NCBI RefSeq assembly: GCF_015207665.1
Contig: NZ_JADEWL010000060.1
Location: forward strand, 1-39,539
Direction of reading: 5' to 3'
Length of the DNA stretch: 39,539 nt
Source: Plectonema cf. radiosum LEGE 06105
GTDB taxonomy: Bacteria > Cyanobacteriota > Cyanobacteriia > Cyanobacteriales > Nostocaceae
Shown: positions 7,258 to 35,263 of the stretch, piece after piece
Numbering within the stretch: the stretch's first letter is position 1
How the letters are laid out: each line of letters begins with the position of its first letter
Notes under the pieces: model-generated
Told to the model about the DNA's origin: nothing
The model's database searches: none
Seen by the model: only the letters and a program-made list of their open reading frames with translations
Made by a program: the position numbers and the translations under genes

Positions 7258-7587
7258 TTATAAAGCCAGCCATAAACGAAGAGATGTATCTATTGTTTGT
7301 GCATCTTGAGCAGATAATTTGCCGATGAACTTAATAATTAAACTTTGTTCAATAGTATAAATTCCTCTTTTTACGGCAGTAGGAACATTTAGTTGAGCAG
7401 CTTCCCAATCAGTTAAAATAAACTCTCCAGGGAAAAGAGAATCTATTCGACTAGTAAGCGGAACTATAAGATAATCTTGGGAAGAAGATTCAGAATTTAC
7501 AACAACAGCAGGACGTACTTTTATTGCTGAAAGGTCGGAACAAGGATAGCGCACTAAAATTACACTATTTTTTGAGTAATTCGGCAT
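7258..7587 (-). CDS. MazF/PemK-type endoribonuclease toxin
   Basis: This is a growth-inhibiting toxin of the MazF/PemK family, whose members cleave mRNA at short motifs. The ~109-residue length and the pattern VILVRYPCSDLSAIKVRPAVVV, with an early strand, the conserved K-x-RP-x-V-V segment and a later VPLTSR strand, fit the family. I prefer the ATG at 7587 (MPNYSKN); another in-frame ATG lies at 7596. The start overlaps the end of the upstream antitoxin gene by 23 bases, the usual arrangement of toxin/antitoxin pairs. Expression is expected to be autoregulated by the complex, but no operator was identified. Confidence 0.85.
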   Translation of the reverse strand: MPNYSKNSVILVRYPCSDLSAIKVRPAVVVNSESSSQDYLIVPLTSRIDSLFPGEFILTDWEAAQLNVPTAVKRGIYTIEQSLIIKFIGKLSAQDAQTIDTSLRLWLAL

Positions 7588-7771
7588 AAATCTCATCCTC
7601 TTGATTATCCCAAACCTTATTTAAAGATTTTTCACTTGTTGTTAACCAAAATTGCTGCTCATCTTGATCAGAAATCAAAGTAATTAAAACTTTAGTACCT
7701 TCCGATAGTTGAATATCTTCCAATAACTCAATTTTGCCATTACGAACAGTAGCCCAGACACTTTTCAGCAT
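7565..7771 (-). CDS. Antitoxin of the MazF-like pair
   Basis: This 68-residue protein is encoded just before and overlapping the MazF-like toxin gene. Its N-terminus (MLKSVWATVRNGKIELLEDI) has the short beta-rich form of small DNA-binding or toxin-neutralising proteins found before PemK-like toxins in cyanobacteria. The acidic C-terminus (VWDNQEDEIYAELL) would be the toxin-binding part. The ATG at 7771 is chosen because GGAG lies about 9 bases upstream; an in-frame TTG at 7795 would add 8 residues without a ribosome site. The antitoxin role follows from context. Confidence 0.8.
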   Translation of the reverse strand: MLKSVWATVRNGKIELLEDIQLSEGTKVLITLISDQDEQQFWLTTSEKSLNKVWDNQEDEIYAELLKK

Positions 7772-15912: not shown

Positions 15913-16359
15913 TTAGCTGTTTATGCTATTAGGGTGAACAATAGTAATTCCTTCAACTTCTACAAAGTCTTTTGGGTTTAAAGTCAAAATATGGCTGATG
16001 TTACGGGCAAGCACTACTGCCTGTATACGTAAATCGTGGGTGCGTTTTCCGGAAATCTTGTGAGTTGTAGCGAGACTTAACCAAATGGGAAATATATCTG
16101 GTGTTTCTTCCAGCAAATCAAATTGGTTTATCAGGATTTGCACCGCTCGTTCGGTTTCTTCTGGTGTCCATCCCAATCCATTTACAGCAACGGGACGAGT
16201 GGCTACAACCCAAAATTCAATTAAAACTTGAGGTGTGATAAAACATTGACCACCCTGTAGCAAGATTTGAGAAATAGCATTGCTAATAATTTCGTACTCA
16301 GAGGAGTGAGTATCAGCAAACCTAAGAATAATATTTGTATCCAACAAATAGCTTGTCAT
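15913..16359 (-). CDS. PIN-domain toxin (VapC-like)
   Basis: This is a 148-residue PIN-domain ribonuclease, the toxin class that cuts RNA with a metal-binding acidic cluster. Asp7 in SYLLDTNIIL is the first acidic residue, the Glu of VLIEFWVV the second, and the Asp of KRTHDLRIQA the third. The later LTLNPKDF and IVHP segments also match the family ending. The ATG at 16359 overlaps the stop of the upstream antitoxin gene by four bases. Function is supported by both the motifs and the pairing. Confidence 0.88.
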   Translation of the reverse strand: MTSYLLDTNIILRFADTHSSEYEIISNAISQILLQGGQCFITPQVLIEFWVVATRPVAVNGLGWTPEETERAVQILINQFDLLEETPDIFPIWLSLATTHKISGKRTHDLRIQAVVLARNISHILTLNPKDFVEVEGITIVHPNSINS

Positions 16360-26963: not shown

Positions 26964-29180
26964 ATGGCAACAAAATTTCCAAAATTTAGCCAAGACCTCG
27001 CACAAGACCCGACTACTCGTCGGATTTGGTATGCGATCGCGATGGGAAATGACTTTGAAAGCCACGATGGAATGACCGAGGAGAATCTTTACCAAAAGAT
27101 TTTCGCTACTCATTTTGGTCATTTGGCAATCATTTTCTTATGGGCATCTAGCCTTTTATTCCATGTAGCTTGGCAAGGTAACTTTGAACAGTGGATTAAA
27201 GATCCTCTTCATATCAGCCCTATCGCTCATGCGATTTGGGACCCCCACTTTGGTAAACCAGCGATCGACGCATTTACTCAAGGTGGCGTAGATTATCCGG
27301 TTAACATTGCTTACTCTGGTGTCTACCACTGGTGGTACACCATTGGGATGCGGACAAACAACGACCTTTATTCTGGTTCGGTGTTTCTCCTATTGTTAGC
27401 AGCGGTATTCCTGTTTGCTGGTTGGTTGCATTTACAACCCAAGTTCCGCCCCAGTCTTTCTTGGTTCAAGAGTGCAGAACCTCGTTTAAACCACCACTTG
27501 GCAGGTTTATTCGGTGTTAGCTCCTTGGCTTGGACTGGTCACTTGGTACACGTAGCTATTCCCGAATCTCGTGGACAACACGTAGGTTGGGATAACTTCC
27601 TCAGCACCCTACCGCACCCAGCAGGATTACAACCCTTCTTTACGGGAAATTGGGGAGCTTATGCAGCTAACCCCGATACTGCTAACCATATATTTGGAAC
27701 ATCTCAAGGTTCCGGTACGGCGATTCTCACCTTCTTAGGTGGTTTTCATCCCCAAACAGAATCCTTGTGGTTGACCGATATGGCTCATCACCACTTGGCG
27801 ATCGCGGTAATCTTTATTGTTGCCGGTCATATGTACCGGACAAACTTCGGCATTGGTCACAGCATCAAAGAAATGCTCAACGCCAAGAACTTCTTTGGCA
27901 CCAAAACTGAAGGACAATTCAACTTACCCCACCAAGGGTTGTACGACACCATCAATAACTCGCTACACTTCCAGTTGTCCTTGGCACTGGCAGCATTAGG
28001 AACAATTACTTCCTTGGTAGCGCAGCATATGTACGCACTGCCGCCTTATGCCTTCATGGCAAGGGACTACACAACACAGGCAGCGTTGTACACTCACCAC
28101 CAGTACATTGCAGTCTTTTTAATGACTGGTGCCTTTGCCCACGCCGCTATCTTCTGGGTACGCGATTATGACCCAGAACAAAACAAAGGCAACGTATTAG
28201 ACCGCGTGTTGAAGCATAAAGAAGCGATTATCTCCCACTTAAGTTGGGTATCCCTTTTCTTAGGTTTCCACACCTTGAGTCTGTACGTACATAACGACGT
28301 AGTTGTAGCTTTTGGTACACCTGAAAAGCAGATTTTGATTGAGCCAGTATTTGCTCAATTCATTCAAGCTGCTCACGGAAAAGTGTTGTACGGCATGGAT
28401 ACATTGCTATCCAACCCTGACAGTATTGCTTCCACAGCAGGTGCTGCTTGGTTGCCTGGATGGGTAGATGCCATCAACAACACTACCAATTCATTATTCT
28501 TAACCATCGGTCCTGGGGACTTCTTGGTACACCACGCCTTCGCATTGGCAATCCACACCACCGTATTAATTTTGGTTAAAGGTGCTTTGGATGCTCGTGG
28601 TTCCAAATTGATGCCCGATAAAAAAGACTTTGGTTATGCATTCCCTTGCGACGGTCCCGGACGTGGTGGTACTTGTGATATCTCCGGTTGGGACTCCTTC
28701 TACCTAGCATTATTCTGGTCATTGAATACAGTGGGATGGGTAACATTCTACTGGCACTGGAAACATCTGGGTATATGGCAAGGAAACGTAGCTGCGTTTA
28801 ATGAAAACTCCACATATCTCATGGGATGGCTCAGAGATTATTTGTGGAACTATTCAGCATCACTGATTAACGGTTACAACCCCTACGGTATGAATAACCT
28901 GTCCGTCTGGGCTTGGATGTTCCTCTTCGGACACCTTGTTTGGGCAACTGGCTTCATGTTCCTCATCTCCTGGAGGGGTTACTGGCAAGAATTGATTGAA
29001 ACACTTGTATGGGCTCACGAGCGCACACCTTTAGCGAACTTAGTTCGTTGGAAAGATAAGCCCGTTGCTATGTCCATTGTTCAAGGTCGTTTGATTGGGT
29101 TAGCTCACTTTACAGTGGGTTATATCCTTACCTATGGCGCATTCCTGATAGCCTCAACGGCGAGTAGGGTAGGCGGATAA
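26964..29180 (+). CDS. psaB: Photosystem I core protein PsaB
   Basis: This second large subunit of the photosystem I core has 738 residues and eleven membrane helices. The N-terminus [40 protein letters not shown] and the F_X loop [10 protein letters not shown], with Cys562 and Cys571, are all as expected. The protein ends SRVGG instead of the more usual short Gly-Phe-type end, a minor difference. AGAGGA about 14 bases before the ATG at 26964 may be the ribosome site. A strong terminator at 29216-29246 closes the psaAB unit. Confidence 0.99.
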
Positions 29181-29246: not shown

Positions 29247-29582
29247 GTATGTGGGGTATTGAAGTCCCCTAAAATCTGGCGAATAGAATTCACGGCTACA
29301 CAGGCAAAGTCCGCCGTGCTAGCGGACTCAATAATAAAAAATATCTTGTAGGTTGGGTTAGACACGAAAACCAAATTTCGCTTTTGATGTAGAATCTATC
29401 AAATCGTGTCGTAACCCAACATCATGATTTTGGATAAATAAAAAAATCCTTCGTTGTAATTTGGTAGATTTTTTGTATCAAGTATCAAATAGATATAAGA
29501 TATTCACAAGAAAAAATACAGTATTGCTTTGTCAATAAATTATTTACAGACTTATAAAATATTAGCGATTTTGTAATTAAAT
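29247..29582. other. Spacer between psaAB and the HerA cassette with two hairpin repeats
   Basis: No gene is seen. AGTCCGC-cgtgcta-GCGGACT (29308-29328) belongs to the dispersed AGTCC family. GTTGGGTTAGACACGA (29352-29367) pairs with TCGTGTCGTAACCCAAC (29404-29420) with one bulge, a form of the common cyanobacterial GTTGGGTT repeat. The AT-rich stretch 29480-29580 must hold the promoter of the cassette, but no clear -35/-10 pair is visible. Confidence 0.65.
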
Positions 29583-31601
29583 ATGAGCATCAGTAGAGAA
29601 TTAACCCAAATTAAGCTTTTTAAGCGAAGAGAAGATGGAGAATGGGACACAGGTATTTTTGTTGCTCGCCCTTTTCGTTTTAGTTATAGCAAGGCAGAAA
29701 TCCTTGTAGCTGATGCCTGGAAACAAAGAGCTAAAGGTATTCCACAGGGATGTTTCTTGCTCGCATATTATGATAATGAATTGGATGACAAGGCAAATAT
29801 TGAAGCAATTTTACTTCGTGTCATCCAACCAACAAAGCTACCTACGGATCAAGAAGTTATCAGTAGTATGGTTGAATACTACAAAGATAATATCCGTACA
29901 GGCACTAATCAAAAGTCTCAATTAGATTCATTCACGCGCTATGAATTTTCTTTCAGCGGTTTGGAATGCTCTGTATTAGGTTCTTTCTATCTTGATAACG
30001 TAGGCAAAAGCCGTTTCGGTGCGGATTTAGAAAATTTCTATAGCGCACATAATTATTCGGTTATTAAACCATCCACTGATATATTAAAGGCTATTGTAAA
30101 CTACAGGGAGAATGGTGTTCCAGGAGGAACGGGAGATATTAAAATAGGGAAAGTTCGCTATAGTTCTAGTAGACGCTTTCAGCAAACTGAGACTGATGTC
30201 CCTGTATATGTTAAAGCTCCTGATTTTGCGGGAAAAAGAACTGCTTTGTTTGGTATGACGCGAACAGGTAAATCAAATACTCTTAAAAAGATAATTCAAG
30301 CTTGCGTTGAAATGAGTGACAATGCACAATTTCAACTAGATAAAGATCAGGAAAATGTTGACGAAATTTTAAACGCTTTCACAGAGGACAATAATCCAAA
30401 GTATCCAATTGGTCAAATCATTTTTGATATAAATGGTGAATACGCTAATCCAAACCTTCAAGATCAAGGTACGGCTATTTTTGATTTATACAAAAAACAA
30501 ACAGTTAGATATTCAACTGTAGCAAAGCCAGATTTTTTGGAAATGAAGGTTAATTTTTATAATGAAATAGAAAATGGGTTCGATCTGATAAGAACCTATC
30601 CTACTATTGCAAACGATAATACTCGATTTGTAACGGGCTTTAAAACAGTCGATTTGGCTAAGCCTGAAGATTATGCTACAAATCGTTCGGCTGCTGCTCG
30701 TCACGACCGCAGAATTGCTGTTTATCTTTGCTGTTTATATCGAGCGGGTTTTCAAGCTCCATCAAATTTCAAAATAAAATTTACTGCAAATCAAGAGGTT
30801 CGCAGTGTTGTGAGTCAAGGTATTAATCCAAGCCAAGGAATCTCTCTTGATGATGCAGCCAATTGGTGGGAGTCTTTATGGGATATTTACGACAATAATG
30901 ATATTGAAGTTTTTAGAAATTATAAACAACAAAATGATCGTGAATGGGCTGATGATGATTTAAAAGCTTTATTAGTAATGCTCACTCGTAAAAGCCGATC
31001 CGGTAAGAGAGCTGATTGTTCTGGCTTCAGAGTTCTCAAACCAGTAATTGAGCAACATACCAGTACTGCTCAGGAACCTTTTGACCTAGATATTTTAAAT
31101 AATCTTAGGCAGGGGAAAATTGTAATTATTGACCTTTCGCTTGGTAATCCTGAGATTCAGCGTATGTTTAGTGAAAGAATTTGCAATCGCATTTTTGCAG
31201 ATGCTATCAGCCGGTTTACTAGCACTCAAGCGAATAATTTTATCCAGTTTTATTTTGAAGAAGCACATAATCTTTTCCCCAAAAAAGAGGATACAAATTT
31301 ATCTCAAATCTACAATCGTTTAGCGAAAGAAGGAGCTAAATTGAATTTAGGTTTAATCTACGCAACCCAAGAAGTTAGCTCAATCAGTAGTAATATTTTG
31401 AAAGCAACACAGAACTGGTTTATCTCGCACCTTAATAATGAAGATGAGATCAAAGAACTGCGGAAATATTATGATTTTAGCGACTTTACTGAAGGCTTGA
31501 TTCGCTTTAGCCAAGATACGGACAAAGGCTTTGTTCGTATGAAAACTTACAGTAATCCATTTGTAATTCCCGTTCAAATTGACCGCTTTCCTCCCGAATA
31601 A
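29583..31601 (+). CDS. HerA/FtsK-superfamily DNA translocase ATPase
   Basis: This 672-residue protein is related to HerA, a hexameric ATPase that pumps double-stranded DNA and in archaea feeds NurA during end resection. Residues ~1-210 form an N-terminal beta-rich domain and linker. The ATPase core begins with Walker A GMTRTGKSNT (residues 224-233, Lys230), followed by IIFDINGEYANPN near 279, typical of HerA. Walker B is FYFEEAHNLF with Glu559-Glu560 where many relatives have Asp-Glu. The C-terminal part has the ATQEVSSIS and LKATQNWF segments. The start is ATG at 29583. The NurA-like gene follows 19 bases after the stop, so co-transcription is likely. The sequence looks more AT-rich than psaAB. 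A defence or repair role is inferred from its partners. Confidence 0.92.
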   Translation: MSISRELTQIKLFKRREDGEWDTGIFVARPFRFSYSKAEILVADAWKQRAKGIPQGCFLLAYYDNELDDKANIEAILLRVIQPTKLPTDQEVISSMVEYYKDNIRTGTNQKSQLDSFTRYEFSFSGLECSVLGSFYLDNVGKSRFGADLENFYSAHNYSVIKPSTDILKAIVNYRENGVPGGTGDIKIGKVRYSSSRRFQQTETDVPVYVKAPDFAGKRTALFGMTRTGKSNTLKKIIQACVEMSDNAQFQLDKDQENVDEILNAFTEDNNPKYPIGQIIFDINGEYANPNLQDQGTAIFDLYKKQTVRYSTVAKPDFLEMKVNFYNEIENGFDLIRTYPTIANDNTRFVTGFKTVDLAKPEDYATNRSAAARHDRRIAVYLCCLYRAGFQAPSNFKIKFTANQEVRSVVSQGINPSQGISLDDAANWWESLWDIYDNNDIEVFRNYKQQNDREWADDDLKALLVMLTRKSRSGKRADCSGFRVLKPVIEQHTSTAQEPFDLDILNNLRQGKIVIIDLSLGNPEIQRMFSERICNRIFADAISRFTSTQANNFIQFYFEEAHNLFPKKEDTNLSQIYNRLAKEGAKLNLGLIYATQEVSSISSNILKATQNWFISHLNNEDEIKELRKYYDFSDFTEGLIRFSQDTDKGFVRMKTYSNPFVIPVQIDRFPPE

Positions 31602-31620
31602 TAATTTCCTGAATAAGAAT

Positions 31621-32973
31621 ATGGGCTACAACAGCAGAAATAATCGCCGTCCTTTTGAAACAGCAAGCAAAGCTTCTCATCATCATATTATTAATGACCC
31701 AGAAGTGCAGGCATTGATGGAGCGTATTTATCAACCTCCTCGTGCAGAAAATATTCCGTTAACAGATTTGACCGTAAAATTTACTCCACCTGATAACAAT
31801 CCTGTAGAAGCTATTATTGCTGTTGATGGGGGTTATACAGAGGCTATTCTAGAAAAAGATTTTCCTTCTAGAAGTATTCACTTTTTACAATTTGGGGCAT
31901 TATTTTTTAAACAGGAAGATTTAGCCCAAATTCATTCTAGCGCCTTTATTGCACCAGAAGATATGGCCAAGCTTAAAAATATTAACCGGCTGAAATTAGC
32001 TTTACCCACTAAGAATATTCGACTTAAAGATGAGAATACACTCAAAAATAGTGTTCTTACAACAATTTTTGAATTTTTTAGGAAAAACACATTAGACGAA
32101 GATAAAAGCTTGATTGATACTTTAGCTTGGTTTGTTTTTCGTCGTTATAAAGGTGGACAAAGAACTGAGGAAGATAGGCTTTGGAAACTGGCTACAAATC
32201 CTCTCAGTTCAGAAGGCAATTCAGTCAAGCTCTTAGAGCAAGATATGGATAGGGAATATAGTTTTCCTTGTCCAGAAACAGGAGGAAGGATTCACCTTAC
32301 CGATATTTTCCGTTTACATGAAGTAATAGATGAGGAAACAGGAGCTGCTGGAATATTAGGTTATTTAGTAAATGTTGTCGAACATCTCATCATTGTTCAT
32401 TTAATTCGCCAATTATTGAATCGTCAGCCAGATATACTCACAAAGATACTTTTTATTAAAGATGGTCCACTAGGCTTTTTTGGTCAAACTGCTGGTTTAC
32501 ATAAACCAATGCGCGACCTTATAAACTTTCTTTTAAGTAAACAGAACATTCTCTTGGCAGGTTTGGAAAAGAGCGGTGCATTTGTAGATCATGCCCACGA
32601 CCTCCAGAAAACCTTGGATTTTGGAACAGCTGTTGTTCTAACAGATAAATATATTTATCGGTATATTTTGCCTGGTTCGGGAGACCCTAGCAGCCCATAT
32701 GCATCTACTAGCAATTATGGTCATAAAGTTATCTTTAAAACTCACAGTGGACAGATGCACGTAATTTCATTACCAGTCGAAGAATTAAAAAAGACCCCTA
32801 TTGATAAAGATTTACCAAATTTACAAGTCATACTAGCAAATGTGGAAGCATTACATTGTGATATGTATGATTCAGCGCTATTTCCTGTAGCCCTTGTAAA
32901 TAAATTAGTGAGCCTCTCGGCTCATCCAAGTCAGCGCATCCTTCAAAAATTCGCGAGCCAGACAGTTAAATAA
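31621..32973 (+). CDS. NurA-like nuclease
   Basis: NurA proteins are Mn-dependent nucleases with an RNase H-like fold that act with HerA. Seen in this 450-residue protein: Asp69 in AIIAVDGGYTEAI, matching the first acidic metal site; FIKDGPLGFFGQTAGL with Asp281, matching the second; then GLEKSGAFVDHAHDL, and near the end a LHCDMYDSALFPVALV segment like the Pro/Leu-containing NurA finish. The protein is larger than archaeal NurA (about 340), with extra sequence at residues 80-250. I choose ATG at 31621; a TTG at 31579, inside the end of the ATPase gene, would add 14 residues. The nuclease call rests on motif pattern, not alignment. Confidence 0.82.
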   Translation: MGYNSRNNRRPFETASKASHHHIINDPEVQALMERIYQPPRAENIPLTDLTVKFTPPDNNPVEAIIAVDGGYTEAILEKDFPSRSIHFLQFGALFFKQEDLAQIHSSAFIAPEDMAKLKNINRLKLALPTKNIRLKDENTLKNSVLTTIFEFFRKNTLDEDKSLIDTLAWFVFRRYKGGQRTEEDRLWKLATNPLSSEGNSVKLLEQDMDREYSFPCPETGGRIHLTDIFRLHEVIDEETGAAGILGYLVNVVEHLIIVHLIRQLLNRQPDILTKILFIKDGPLGFFGQTAGLHKPMRDLINFLLSKQNILLAGLEKSGAFVDHAHDLQKTLDFGTAVVLTDKYIYRYILPGSGDPSSPYASTSNYGHKVIFKTHSGQMHVISLPVEELKKTPIDKDLPNLQVILANVEALHCDMYDSALFPVALVNKLVSLSAHPSQRILQKFASQTVK

Positions 32974-33012
32974 AAGTTTATAAATAGTATGAATCTGGTG
33001 TTCAAAAGAAGC

Positions 33013-33019
33013 TATAAAT
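33013..33019 (+). promoter_or_regulatory. Possible internal -10 box before methyltransferase
   Basis: TATAAAT lies 36 bases before the TTG start in the 81-base gap after the nuclease gene. It could give the methyltransferase its own transcript so that protection precedes cutting. No good -35 element is visible, so this is a weak call. Confidence 0.25.
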
Positions 33020-33054
33020 ATAAAGTTGAGATGAACTTATAGTAGTCAAAGCTC

Positions 33055-33993
33055 TTGCGAGAAAAAATTATTAAGCATAGAAAAGCCAAAGCAATTAACT
33101 TTAAACCATACTATTCCCAGAAATGCGGTCAAGCATATTTGGGCGATAGTTTGAAATTGATTGAACACATATCAGATAACAGTATTAATTTAATACTTAC
33201 CTCACCTCCATTTGCATTGACACGTCAAAAAGAATATGGCAATCAACGTGAGGAAGATTATATAGAATGGTTTCTACCTTTTGCCAAAGAGTTTAAAAGA
33301 GTATTAGCCGAAGATGGTTCTTTTGTATTAGATTTAGGCGGCGCTTATCTTCCAGGCTTGCCAGTTCGTAGCCTTTATCAATATGAACTTTTGCTGACAT
33401 TATGTAAAAAACTCGGCTTTTATCTTGCCCAAGAATTATATCACTACAATCCAGCTCGATTACCGACTCCTGCTGAATGGGTTACTGTTAGACGAATTCG
33501 TGTAAAGGATTCAGTAAATGTAGTTTGGTGGTTATCTAAAACGCCTCATCCTAAAGCTGATAATACCAAAGTGCTAAAGCCTTATAGCAAAAGCATGAAA
33601 AATTTGCTTGAGAAAGGCTATGAAGCAAAATTACGTCCTAGCGGACATGATATTTCCAATAAATTCCAAAAAGATAACAAAGGAGCAATTCCACCAAATT
33701 TTTTAGAAGCGCAAAACTTTTTAAAAATAGGTAACACTGAATCAAATAGTGCTTATATGCGACGCTGCAAACAAGCGGGAATCAAACCTCATCCAGCGCG
33801 TTTCCCTCGTGGTTTTGCGGAGTTCTTTATTAAATTTCTTACAGATGAAAACGATACTATTTTAGATCCCTTTGCGGGTTCAAATACTACGGGTTTCGTT
33901 GCAGAAAGCTTACAACGTCGTTGGGTATCGTTTGAAATTAACGAAAATTATCTTGTCGGAAGTCAGTATAGATTTGAAGATAGCAAGCCCTAA
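33055..33993 (+). CDS. Beta-class DNA methyltransferase (probable N4-cytosine)
   Basis: This is an S-adenosylmethionine-dependent DNA methyltransferase of 312 residues. The catalytic motif IV, TSPPF (residues 49-53), comes before the cofactor-binding motif I, DPFAGSNTTG (271-280), which is the beta-class order. The stretch between, including a Lys/Pro-rich region near 160-220, should be the target-recognition part. SPPF occurs in N4-cytosine enzymes such as M.PvuII, but N6-adenine cannot be excluded. The start is a TTG at 33055: in-frame stops lie at 33040-33045 and the YLGDSL motif follows at residues 28-33, so no upstream start fits. It lies 81 bases after the nuclease gene on the same strand. 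The target sequence is unknown. Confidence 0.9.
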   Translation: MREKIIKHRKAKAINFKPYYSQKCGQAYLGDSLKLIEHISDNSINLILTSPPFALTRQKEYGNQREEDYIEWFLPFAKEFKRVLAEDGSFVLDLGGAYLPGLPVRSLYQYELLLTLCKKLGFYLAQELYHYNPARLPTPAEWVTVRRIRVKDSVNVVWWLSKTPHPKADNTKVLKPYSKSMKNLLEKGYEAKLRPSGHDISNKFQKDNKGAIPPNFLEAQNFLKIGNTESNSAYMRRCKQAGIKPHPARFPRGFAEFFIKFLTDENDTILDPFAGSNTTGFVAESLQRRWVSFEINENYLVGSQYRFEDSKP

Positions 33994-34279: not shown

Positions 34280-35263
34280 ATGAGAGACTTGTATCTACTG
34301 ACAACAAGCTTGTTAATCGGATTGACAATACCAACATCGATTTTACCAAAGTTACCAACAGTCAAACCACAACATTATCAGCTTTTATTAAACCTAGAAA
34401 AGCAAGCAACAAAAGTAGAGAATACAATCTCCGACTCAGAAATGCCTTTATCGGACTTTATATCTCAAAGAGTTTCACCACCGACAAAATTCTCTTTTAA
34501 TTCTCCTCAAGTTGTAGAAAAAAGATTAATCTCTGGAAGTCAACTTTATCATCAAAGGTTAGCTGCTCTCAAAGCAGGTTATATTTATACAAGATTACCT
34601 AGCGAACAGTTGCAATCGCTCTTAATTACTAGAAGAAAATCCAAGCTAACATATCAAGATTGGAAAAATTTATTGGCTTTAGAAGCCGTGGCAATCGCTA
34701 AAGGACAAGGTAACAATCGCTTAAGTATTATGTTAGGTGATTCTTTGAGTCTCTGGTTTCCCATAAATCAACTTCCCAGTCAAAAGTTGTGGTTAAATCA
34801 AGGTATATCGGGTGATACTTCCACGGGAGTATTAAGAAGAATATCTGCATTTTCTTCTACAAAGCCAGAAATAATTTATATCATGGCTGGTATCAACGAT
34901 TTAAGAAAAGGTACGTCAGATACTGTGATTTTAAACAATCATCGTCAAATGATTCGGAGTTTAAAACGTACTCATCCCAATAGTTATATTATTATTCAAT
35001 CAATATTACCAACTCGTTTACCAACAATTCCTAATACTCGCATTCGCACTATCAATACACAATTAGCAAATATTGCTAAACAAGAAGGTGTTAATTATAT
35101 TAACCTTCATAAATGGTTTGCTGATTTTCAAGGAGATTTACGACAAGACTTGACTACCGATGGTTTACATTTAAGTTTAGAAGGTTATCAAGTTTGGCTA
35201 GCTGCAATACAGCAAATAGAAGAAAAGTTAGCTATTTCTAAATCTACAACTACTCTACAATAG
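34280..35263 (+). CDS. SGNH/GDSL-family hydrolase with signal peptide
   Basis: This is a predicted exported esterase or lipase of 327 residues. Residues 3-22 form a hydrophobic signal segment. After a ~125-residue variable region the SGNH fold begins: Ser155 in MLGDSLS (block I), Gly in NQGISGDTS (block II), Asn in AGINDLRKG (block III) and Asp/His in DGLHLSLEGY (block V). All catalytic and oxyanion residues are present, so it should be active. Family substrates include acylated sugars, lipids and peptidoglycan O-acetyl groups; the actual one is unknown. The start is ATG at 34280. It lies after the defence-like cassette and is convergent with the kinase gene. Confidence 0.9.
   Translation: MRDLYLLTTSLLIGLTIPTSILPKLPTVKPQHYQLLLNLEKQATKVENTISDSEMPLSDFISQRVSPPTKFSFNSPQVVEKRLISGSQLYHQRLAALKAGYIYTRLPSEQLQSLLITRRKSKLTYQDWKNLLALEAVAIAKGQGNNRLSIMLGDSLSLWFPINQLPSQKLWLNQGISGDTSTGVLRRISAFSSTKPEIIYIMAGINDLRKGTSDTVILNNHRQMIRSLKRTHPNSYIIIQSILPTRLPTIPNTRIRTINTQLANIAKQEGVNYINLHKWFADFQGDLRQDLTTDGLHLSLEGYQVWLAAIQQIEEKLAISKSTTTLQ

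Follow-up and report, generated by a model that had tools for sequence, protein, structure and literature searches.

We analysed a stretch of 39,539 nucleotides from the cyanobacterium Plectonema cf. radiosum LEGE 06105 (contig NZ_JADEWL010000060.1, positions 1 to 39,539 of the forward strand; hereafter the window), in which three consecutive genes encode a HerA-type DNA translocase ATPase, a NurA-fold nuclease and a DNA methyltransferase (Table 1). An earlier reading of the letters, hereafter the original prediction, had described three genes on one strand with spacings of 19 and 81 bases, and all three open reading frames (ORFs) were recovered on the plus strand at those positions, with 19 bases between HerA and NurA and 81 between NurA and the methyltransferase. 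The mechanical ORF of the NurA-like gene begins at a TTG at 31579, within the HerA gene, and the ATG at 31621 was taken as its start; the start of the methyltransferase is uncertain, with matches to orthologues commencing at residues 2-17. The surroundings are those of a cyanobacterial chromosome, with psaA and psaB to the left (identified by eye) and a gene for a GDSL-like lipase to the right. When the lists of window ORFs (at least 80 or at least 110 amino acids) were read by eye, neither mre11 nor rad50 was seen, in agreement with the original prediction, and no transfer gene was seen either.

The ATPase matched PF01935 (DUF87 domain; E 1.6e-13), and its top sequence match in PDB was TdpA (8wet, E 2.5e-19). 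A predicted model of the monomer, with a predicted local distance difference test (pLDDT) score of 84, again found TdpA as its best Foldseek match (E 7.9e-29), with other anti-phage HerA complexes, Thermococcus kodakarensis HerA and SIR2-HerA ranking lower. Among 59 aligned HerA proteins, residues G224, M225, T226, R227, G229, K230, S231 and N232 of the Walker A motif GMTRTGKSN are invariant and T228 is nearly so, and E559, E560, A561 and H562 of the EEAH motif are likewise invariant. The claim of a HerA-type ATPase with an intact Walker A motif is thus borne out by both the domain match and the alignment.

For the NurA-like protein of the window (P0002) itself, searches against Pfam, PADLOC and PDB sequences gave no match at the limits used, and a PDB sequence search with the NurA profile gave 0 matches. 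Among 74 aligned relatives, 27 matched PF09376 (NurA) at E ≤0.01 (best 9.8e-12). The monomer model built from the 74-row alignment (pLDDT 88) found chain G of TdpAB (8wfd) as its best Foldseek match (E 2.6e-9), followed by Deinococcus radiodurans NurA (7f6d) and T. kodakarensis NurA, and ranks 1-15 were taken by TdpAB, HerA-NurA or NurA chains together with one RNase H-like nuclease. We named the protein NurA because some of its relatives match PF09376 and its predicted fold best matches the TdpB/NurA structures. The original prediction had singled out Asp69 and Asp281 as acidic residues of the nuclease; both are invariant, as are E13, D228, E254, G314, K317 and G319, in 80 aligned near-complete NurA proteins (partial and split rows excluded), D69, D228, E254 and D281 being the putative catalytic acids. 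A scan of viral_contigs (query A5) revealed 0 relatives, and the viral fold library gave 0 matches at E ≤0.001.

To characterise the gene neighbourhood of the family, we scanned genome_contigs (84,980 species) with the NurA alignment and one peptide pattern, which yielded 121 stretches and 83 relatives, 80 of which were kept and joined with the window and further loci, including plasmid and phage ones. Dropped before the count of 81 HerA+NurA blocks were duplicates (L001, L002, L003, L035, L064, L076), two loci fetched as methyltransferase loci that have no NurA (L012, L013), one with no HerA or NurA ORF called (L087) and four with no HerA ORF (L021, L057, L060, L065). Later NurA matches (part of L179-L191, L192-L193, several family genomes) stand outside this neighbour census; G598, a genome of the same genus as the window, was examined. 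By record title, the relatives come from Cyanobacteriota, Bacteroidota, Actinomycetota, Pseudomonadota, Bacillota, Chloroflexota, Planctomycetota, Campylobacterota, candidate phyla and others, and two haloarchaea are also among them.

A methyltransferase ORF was found at most 300 bp away in 69 of the 81 blocks, counting near-identical copies (e.g. L010, L037, L039) separately and using methyltransferase profiles built from neighbours of the same loci. It lies on the same strand in 66 of these and at a distance of at most 30 bp, overlaps included, in 59; with ORF starts set mechanically, 33 overlap, 18 of them by four bases. As background, 10 methyltransferase matches occurred among 741 ORFs (at least 100 amino acids) lying more than 300 bp from the blocks. 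The same-strand methyltransferase is 5' in 51 blocks and 3' in 15. Three types were distinguished, namely PvuII-like (41), D12 (15) and rearranged (13), of which the PvuII-like and rearranged types belong to PF01555 where tested and the D12 type to PF02086 in the member tested. With three types drawn from two Pfam families, the pairing is not tied to any single methyltransferase, and because the loci were found with NurA alone, they were not selected for having one. The 12 blocks without an adjacent methyltransferase comprise 10 from Nostocales, L022 at a contig edge and L090 from an actinomycete. Outside 12 Nostocales blocks (those 10, the window and L016), 67 of 69 have a methyltransferase within 300 bp, with L009 counted as outside Nostocales by inference. 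The linkage in unrelated taxa that the original prediction had proposed to count therefore holds for the family.

The window methyltransferase carries the predicted SPPF and DPFAGSNTTG motifs and matches M.PvuII (1boo) with E 7.6e-106 and 52-53% identity, in addition to Pfam N6_N4_Mtase and PADLOC MTase_II (PDLC03323, E 4.3e-122). It is a PvuII-type methyltransferase, probably acting on N4 of cytosine; M.PvuII itself targets CAGCTG. Identification with M.Ssp6803II, a GGCC methylase, was rejected, the two being set apart without direct sequence comparison. In a phylogenetic tree of 72 rows, from which two family methyltransferases of less than 270 amino acids (L034, L062) were left out, 36 of 37 PvuII-like methyltransferases of the HerA-NurA family formed one clade (100/100). 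The sole family row outside it, L029, has a long branch. The window and L016 enzymes fell instead within a clade of 17, together with 15 resident genes (100/97).

Synteny pointed in the same direction. A lipase match (E ≤1e-40) was present in 57 of 60 genomes searched in the family of the window (f1; named loci place Nostoc, Calothrix and Westiellopsis in it). In short stretches around the lipase, 17 of 29 relative loci showed a match to the window methyltransferase, G325 with a remnant only, and in the wider stretches L130-L136 the gene or a remnant was present in 6 of 7, L133 having psaB and the lipase without it. The sole stretches with HerA or NurA among these lipase loci were L016 and L094, the latter being that of the window itself. 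The order psaB, methyltransferase, lipase without HerA-NurA in between was found in L131, L132 and L136, of which the genomes of L132 and L136 carry NurA elsewhere, and also in L200 (G609) and L201 (G581), from genomes of the same genus as the window with 0 NurA matches. In G609, about 290 bp take the place of the segment with HerA and NurA (Table 1), with a further insert of about 630 bp closer to psaB; in G581, the HerA-NurA place is taken by about 2.2 kb of different DNA. On this sequence evidence, the window methyltransferase is an older resident gene, and the tree together with the psaB-methyltransferase-lipase synteny rules it out as the cognate enzyme of the HerA-NurA family. The original prediction had cautioned that the methyltransferase could be an unrelated neighbour, and for the window this caveat applies, as the gene is resident between psaB and the lipase and lies outside the family clade.

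G325 bears on the history of the locus. Identity to the window is 98.9% for its psaB and 94.8% for its lipase, and at the locus it has neither HerA nor NurA; of the methyltransferase, residues 233-312 alone remain, the first three quarters being missing together with the other two genes. By synonymous divergence (dS) of the lipase, the window is nearer to G325 (0.12) than to G598 (0.66). Because G598 and the window share the three genes at one place while G325 is nearer to the window, a joint loss of HerA, NurA and most of the methyltransferase in G325 is likely.

Table 1. Features of the window at and around the HerA-NurA locus
Feature	Coordinates	Strand	Length, start and evidence
HerA-type DNA translocase ATPase	29583..31601	+	672 aa; Walker A and EEAH intact; PF01935 and TdpA matches
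NurA-fold nuclease	31621..32973	+	450 aa, start ATG; Asp69 and Asp281 invariant in family; fold match
PvuII-type methyltransferase (probably N4-cytosine)	33055..33993	+	312 aa, start TTG; 1boo match, tree, synteny
Segment with HerA and NurA, absent from same-genus G609	29425..33110	.	blastn of window versus L200; ~290 bp instead
psaB, left flank	26964..29180	+	ORF identified by eye; also in L130-L133, L136, L200, L201, L016
GDSL-like lipase, right flank	34280..35263	+	PF13472, E 3.8e-25

The distribution of HerA-NurA is patchy, with matches in 3 of 292 genomes of the phylum (E ≤0.001), 17 of 291 of the order and 14 of 145 of the family (both E ≤1e-10). Plasmid records gave 5 matches, including Deferribacter and three Nostocales, and two Vibrio phages with relatives were found among phage records. 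In Vibrio phage 10N.286.55.C4_PE001 (L011, 1-5750), HerA-NurA has an integrase on one side and, on the other, a convergent D12 methyltransferase (PD-Lambda-5_B, E 5.5e-120), and in Deferribacter pDF308 (L007, 4126-7924) the HerA of a methyltransferase-HerA-NurA block is broken by an IS200/IS605 TnpA-TnpB element. In G598, HerA, NurA and the methyltransferase are continuous, with 86% DNA identity to positions 29593-33974 of the window. The ratios of nonsynonymous to synonymous substitution (dN/dS) between the two were 0.061 for HerA, 0.113 for NurA and 0.113 for the methyltransferase, showing purifying selection on all three. Judged from these alignments, HerA-NurA is a maintained pair, though patchy.

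We also built a NurA tree (near-complete rows, quick search without bootstrap). In it, the window groups with L014-L018, inside a group whose other members L009, L067, L019 and L020 carry a tight 5' methyltransferase; L021, with no HerA in its stretch, falls in the same wider group, and the next branch consists of two Burkholderiales, also with a 5' methyltransferase. Because the Nostocales clade of the window NurA is nested among relatives with a tight 5' methyltransferase, the cognate gene has apparently been lost in this group, which is the simplest reading by parsimony on the tree. HerA-NurA may have arrived at the psaB locus a single time (window, G598, L016) and moved later in L014, L015, L017 and L018, or it may have arrived repeatedly. 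No remnant of the window methyltransferase was found beside HerA-NurA in L014, L015, L017 or L018.

The resident methyltransferase is frequent in the family, near full length at 69% identity or more in 88 of the 145 genomes. In eight of the 88, a single stop interrupts the matched stretch; as their open frames span 302-348 amino acids, this stop probably lies near an end. Among the 14 genomes with a NurA match, 10 have a NurA at least 50% identical to that of the window (G617 as a fragment); all 10, two of them with such a stop, are among the 88 (hypergeometric p = 0.0055, or 0.009 without the fragment, uncorrected for kinship). In a set of 18 hand-picked genomes, the eight with HerA-NurA and no adjacent solo methyltransferase all carry the resident gene, with 75-79% identity (partial in L025), and three of these eight (L015, L017, L018) have Type III-like genes. 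The NurA-fragment genome L065 also has the resident methyltransferase. The genomes with a tight 5' methyltransferase (L019, L054, L067, L069, G056), as well as L021, show merely a 45-48% match to it.

We propose that the window HerA-NurA comes from a widespread family of methyltransferase, HerA and NurA genes that would work as a motor-driven, restriction-modification-like system, and that after loss of the cognate methyltransferase a resident one stands in; we give this reading an even chance. The HerA ring would thread double-stranded DNA into a NurA dimer, which would degrade it, an arrangement proposed because solved TdpAB and HerA-NurA complexes suggest such an assembly. Methylation of the host DNA would keep HerA-NurA off self. 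In most lineages, a dedicated methyltransferase of the same gene block would supply the protecting mark, while in the Nostocales lineage of the window the cognate enzyme would have been lost, and the older resident PvuII-type methyltransferase that HerA-NurA adjoins would now probably supply it. The assembly, the degradation of unmethylated DNA and the self-protection by methylation are what we infer from the comparisons above. The family linkage supports a modification-gated degradation system resembling TdpAB, and the best fold matches of the window HerA and NurA, being the two subunits of that one solved complex, favour the same reading. Of the module of motor, nuclease and modification enzyme put forward in the original prediction, the general scheme fits the family by its linkage, but a dedicated methyltransferase partner in the window is not supported by the tree or the synteny.

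Several observations weigh against the proposal. The structural models are of monomers, and their identity to TdpA and TdpB over the fold alignments is 13-19%. The window methyltransferase groups with resident genes, and its target-recognition region is M.PvuII-like (IPPN), with neither the insert nor the GGSIxHN motif that the cognate enzymes compared with it carry, so it may methylate a site other than theirs. To stand in, it would have to arrive at the same target in a different way, or the nuclease would have to be one that is not tied to a single motif. In ten Nostocales blocks, no solo methyltransferase lies alongside. The ten-of-ten association of NurA with the resident gene is uncorrected for kinship, includes one NurA fragment and is drawn from two NurA groups. 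In four family genomes NurA is divergent (27-31%); two of these belong to the 88, a third gives a truncated match to the resident gene and the fourth only a 64% partial one. Finally, 76 of the 145 genomes have the resident methyltransferase without any NurA match, and it therefore has a life of its own. Taken with the evidence above, the resident methyltransferase is suggested as a stand-in for the cognate enzyme, and a partnership of the window HerA-NurA with the adjoining gene is plausible.

The strongest competitor is that HerA-NurA works independently of methyltransferases, perhaps in recombination or the processing of DNA ends, the resident gene being a mere neighbour. The residence of that gene at the locus in relatives and the Nostocales blocks with no solo methyltransferase alongside both speak for it, as does the presence of the D. 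radiodurans and T. kodakarensis HerA-NurA complexes among the best fold matches; the abstract of the T. kodakarensis HerA-NurA paper speaks of DNA end resection. Yet the methyltransferase within 300 bp in 67 of 69 blocks speaks against such a role, and the patchy spread and the carriage on plasmids and Vibrio phages are unlike a housekeeping repair gene. We regard this explanation as unlikely, at about one half of the probability of our own.

Less probable still is that the methyltransferase is a physical target-finding subunit of HerA-NurA, in the manner of Type I or single-chain enzymes, such that a swap would change methylation and restriction specificity together. Very tight blocks, with their many overlaps, and the pairing of different methyltransferases with related NurA proteins are what this would lead one to expect, but the methyltransferases belong to two Pfam families and occur both 5' and 3' of the pair, which speaks against a single conserved surface for docking, and for most Nostocales blocks examined the methyltransferase is elsewhere in the genome. 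A general modification-gated design is favoured over a fixed subunit because several methyltransferase types share one motor-nuclease family. We consider a target-finding subunit quite improbable, and give the slimmest chance of all to a module serving the transfer of mobile-element DNA. For the latter, the same kinds of genes form one operon of the Thermus element ICETh1, which takes part in transjugation, and several copies of the family are on plasmids; against it, the window copy shares its contig with psaA and psaB, occupies the same place in G598, is under purifying selection and has no transfer gene among the window ORFs read by eye.

Among known systems, TdpABC of Thermus (8wet, 8wfd) likewise has a HerA-type ATPase and a NurA-type nuclease, and its TdpAB is the best structural match for both window proteins. 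In TdpABC, self-marking is phosphorothioation by TdpC, whereas the modification gene linked in the present family is a DNA methyltransferase. No phosphorothioation gene (TdpC) is adjacent to the window pair, whose neighbours at the locus, the part of the genome considered here, are psaB, the methyltransferase and the GDSL-like lipase. Archaeal and Deinococcus HerA-NurA share the motor and nuclease folds, identity being about 9-12% where NurA matches by fold. The archaeal herA-nurA genes cluster with mre11 and rad50 in a resection cluster, unlike the window locus as read by eye. The PvuII restriction-modification system is related through M.PvuII, but no PvuII endonuclease gene was seen beside the window methyltransferase. 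PD-Lambda-5_B was the best PADLOC match of five scanned D12 methyltransferases of the family (L011, L074, L079, L080, L089); membership in PD-Lambda-5 was rejected, since the scanned HerA and NurA proteins of those loci match no PD-Lambda-5 model and the window methyltransferase is of another class. PADLOC and Pfam name the HerA and the methyltransferase separately and miss the window NurA.

The DUF4297-HerA and SIR2-HerA defence systems also combine a HerA motor with an effector (for DUF4297-HerA, PMC11291478), but in the present case a NurA-fold nuclease fills the effector role, and the family has a linked modification gene. According to PMC5365140, an operon of the Thermus integrative and conjugative element (ICE) ICETh1 encodes the Type IIG enzyme Tth111II, a NurA-like protein, the HerA-like TdtA and an N4/N6 methylase, and transfer was undetectable in a tdtA mutant and strongly reduced in nurA-like and Tth111II mutants. 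As in the present family, NurA-like, HerA-like and PF01555 methylase genes stand together there; compared by description, that operon differs in its Type IIG enzyme, its location on an ICE, its study for transjugation and its NurA-like protein of 377 amino acids (PMC5365140). This operon apart, no methyltransferase-HerA-NurA system was described in the titles and abstract openings of the literature searched, and it is the nearest published gene set found.

Further observations concern the neighbours of HerA-NurA. In L015, L017 and L018, a Type III-like Res gene about 30-70 bp upstream replaces the solo methyltransferase (the Res of L015, the one tested, matched PADLOC REase_III with E 1.8e-7) and is preceded by an ORF of 594-669 amino acids with methyltransferase motifs. 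Nine Bacteroidota loci (L036, L040, L041, L043, L044, L047, L048, L066, L073) share a gene cluster downstream of NurA, comprising 19 ORFs that are HNH nuclease-like by eye and abutting the NurA end in L036. In three Helicobacter loci (L071, L072, L078), methyltransferase or NurA frames are short or split, which may reflect decay, phase variation or sequencing error. A small helix-turn-helix regulator lies upstream of HerA in the Nostocales loci L004, L005, L006 and L059, which have no methyltransferase (annotated in L004-L006, by eye in L059), and on the Nostoc plasmid pANSO36C (L005, 9408-10466) AbiTii directly follows HerA-NurA (PF18864, E 2e-42). A PADLOC search of 95 neighbouring ORFs, hand-picked from 153 candidates (at most 2 per locus, 150-700 amino acids) and with no control set, gave, among the families listed (25 of 233), PtuA in 4, PtuB in 3, AriA in 3 and AbiTii on member 1; Pfam tallies of neighbouring genes were diffuse. 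In the window itself, a VapC-like PIN protein (15913-16359, minus strand) and a MazF-like protein (7258-7596, minus strand) were identified by eye.

The HerA-NurA family is real and conserved, and the window methyltransferase is an older resident that was possibly adopted. We put forward, tentatively and with somewhat less than an even chance, that methyltransferase-HerA-NurA represents a class of modification-gated DNA-degrading systems that crosses phyla, is undescribed in the literature searched and can use any of at least three methyltransferase types as its marking enzyme, and that in Nostocales the motor-nuclease half has lost its own antidote and relies on a resident methyltransferase of the chromosome, which would thereby become conditionally essential. 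If true, this class would add to TdpABC-type defence a counterpart that marks by methylation, present in bacteria and haloarchaea. It would also help to explain many orphan-looking methyltransferases adjoining HerA-NurA genes, and the window would offer a natural example in which a nuclease lives off the methylase already resident.

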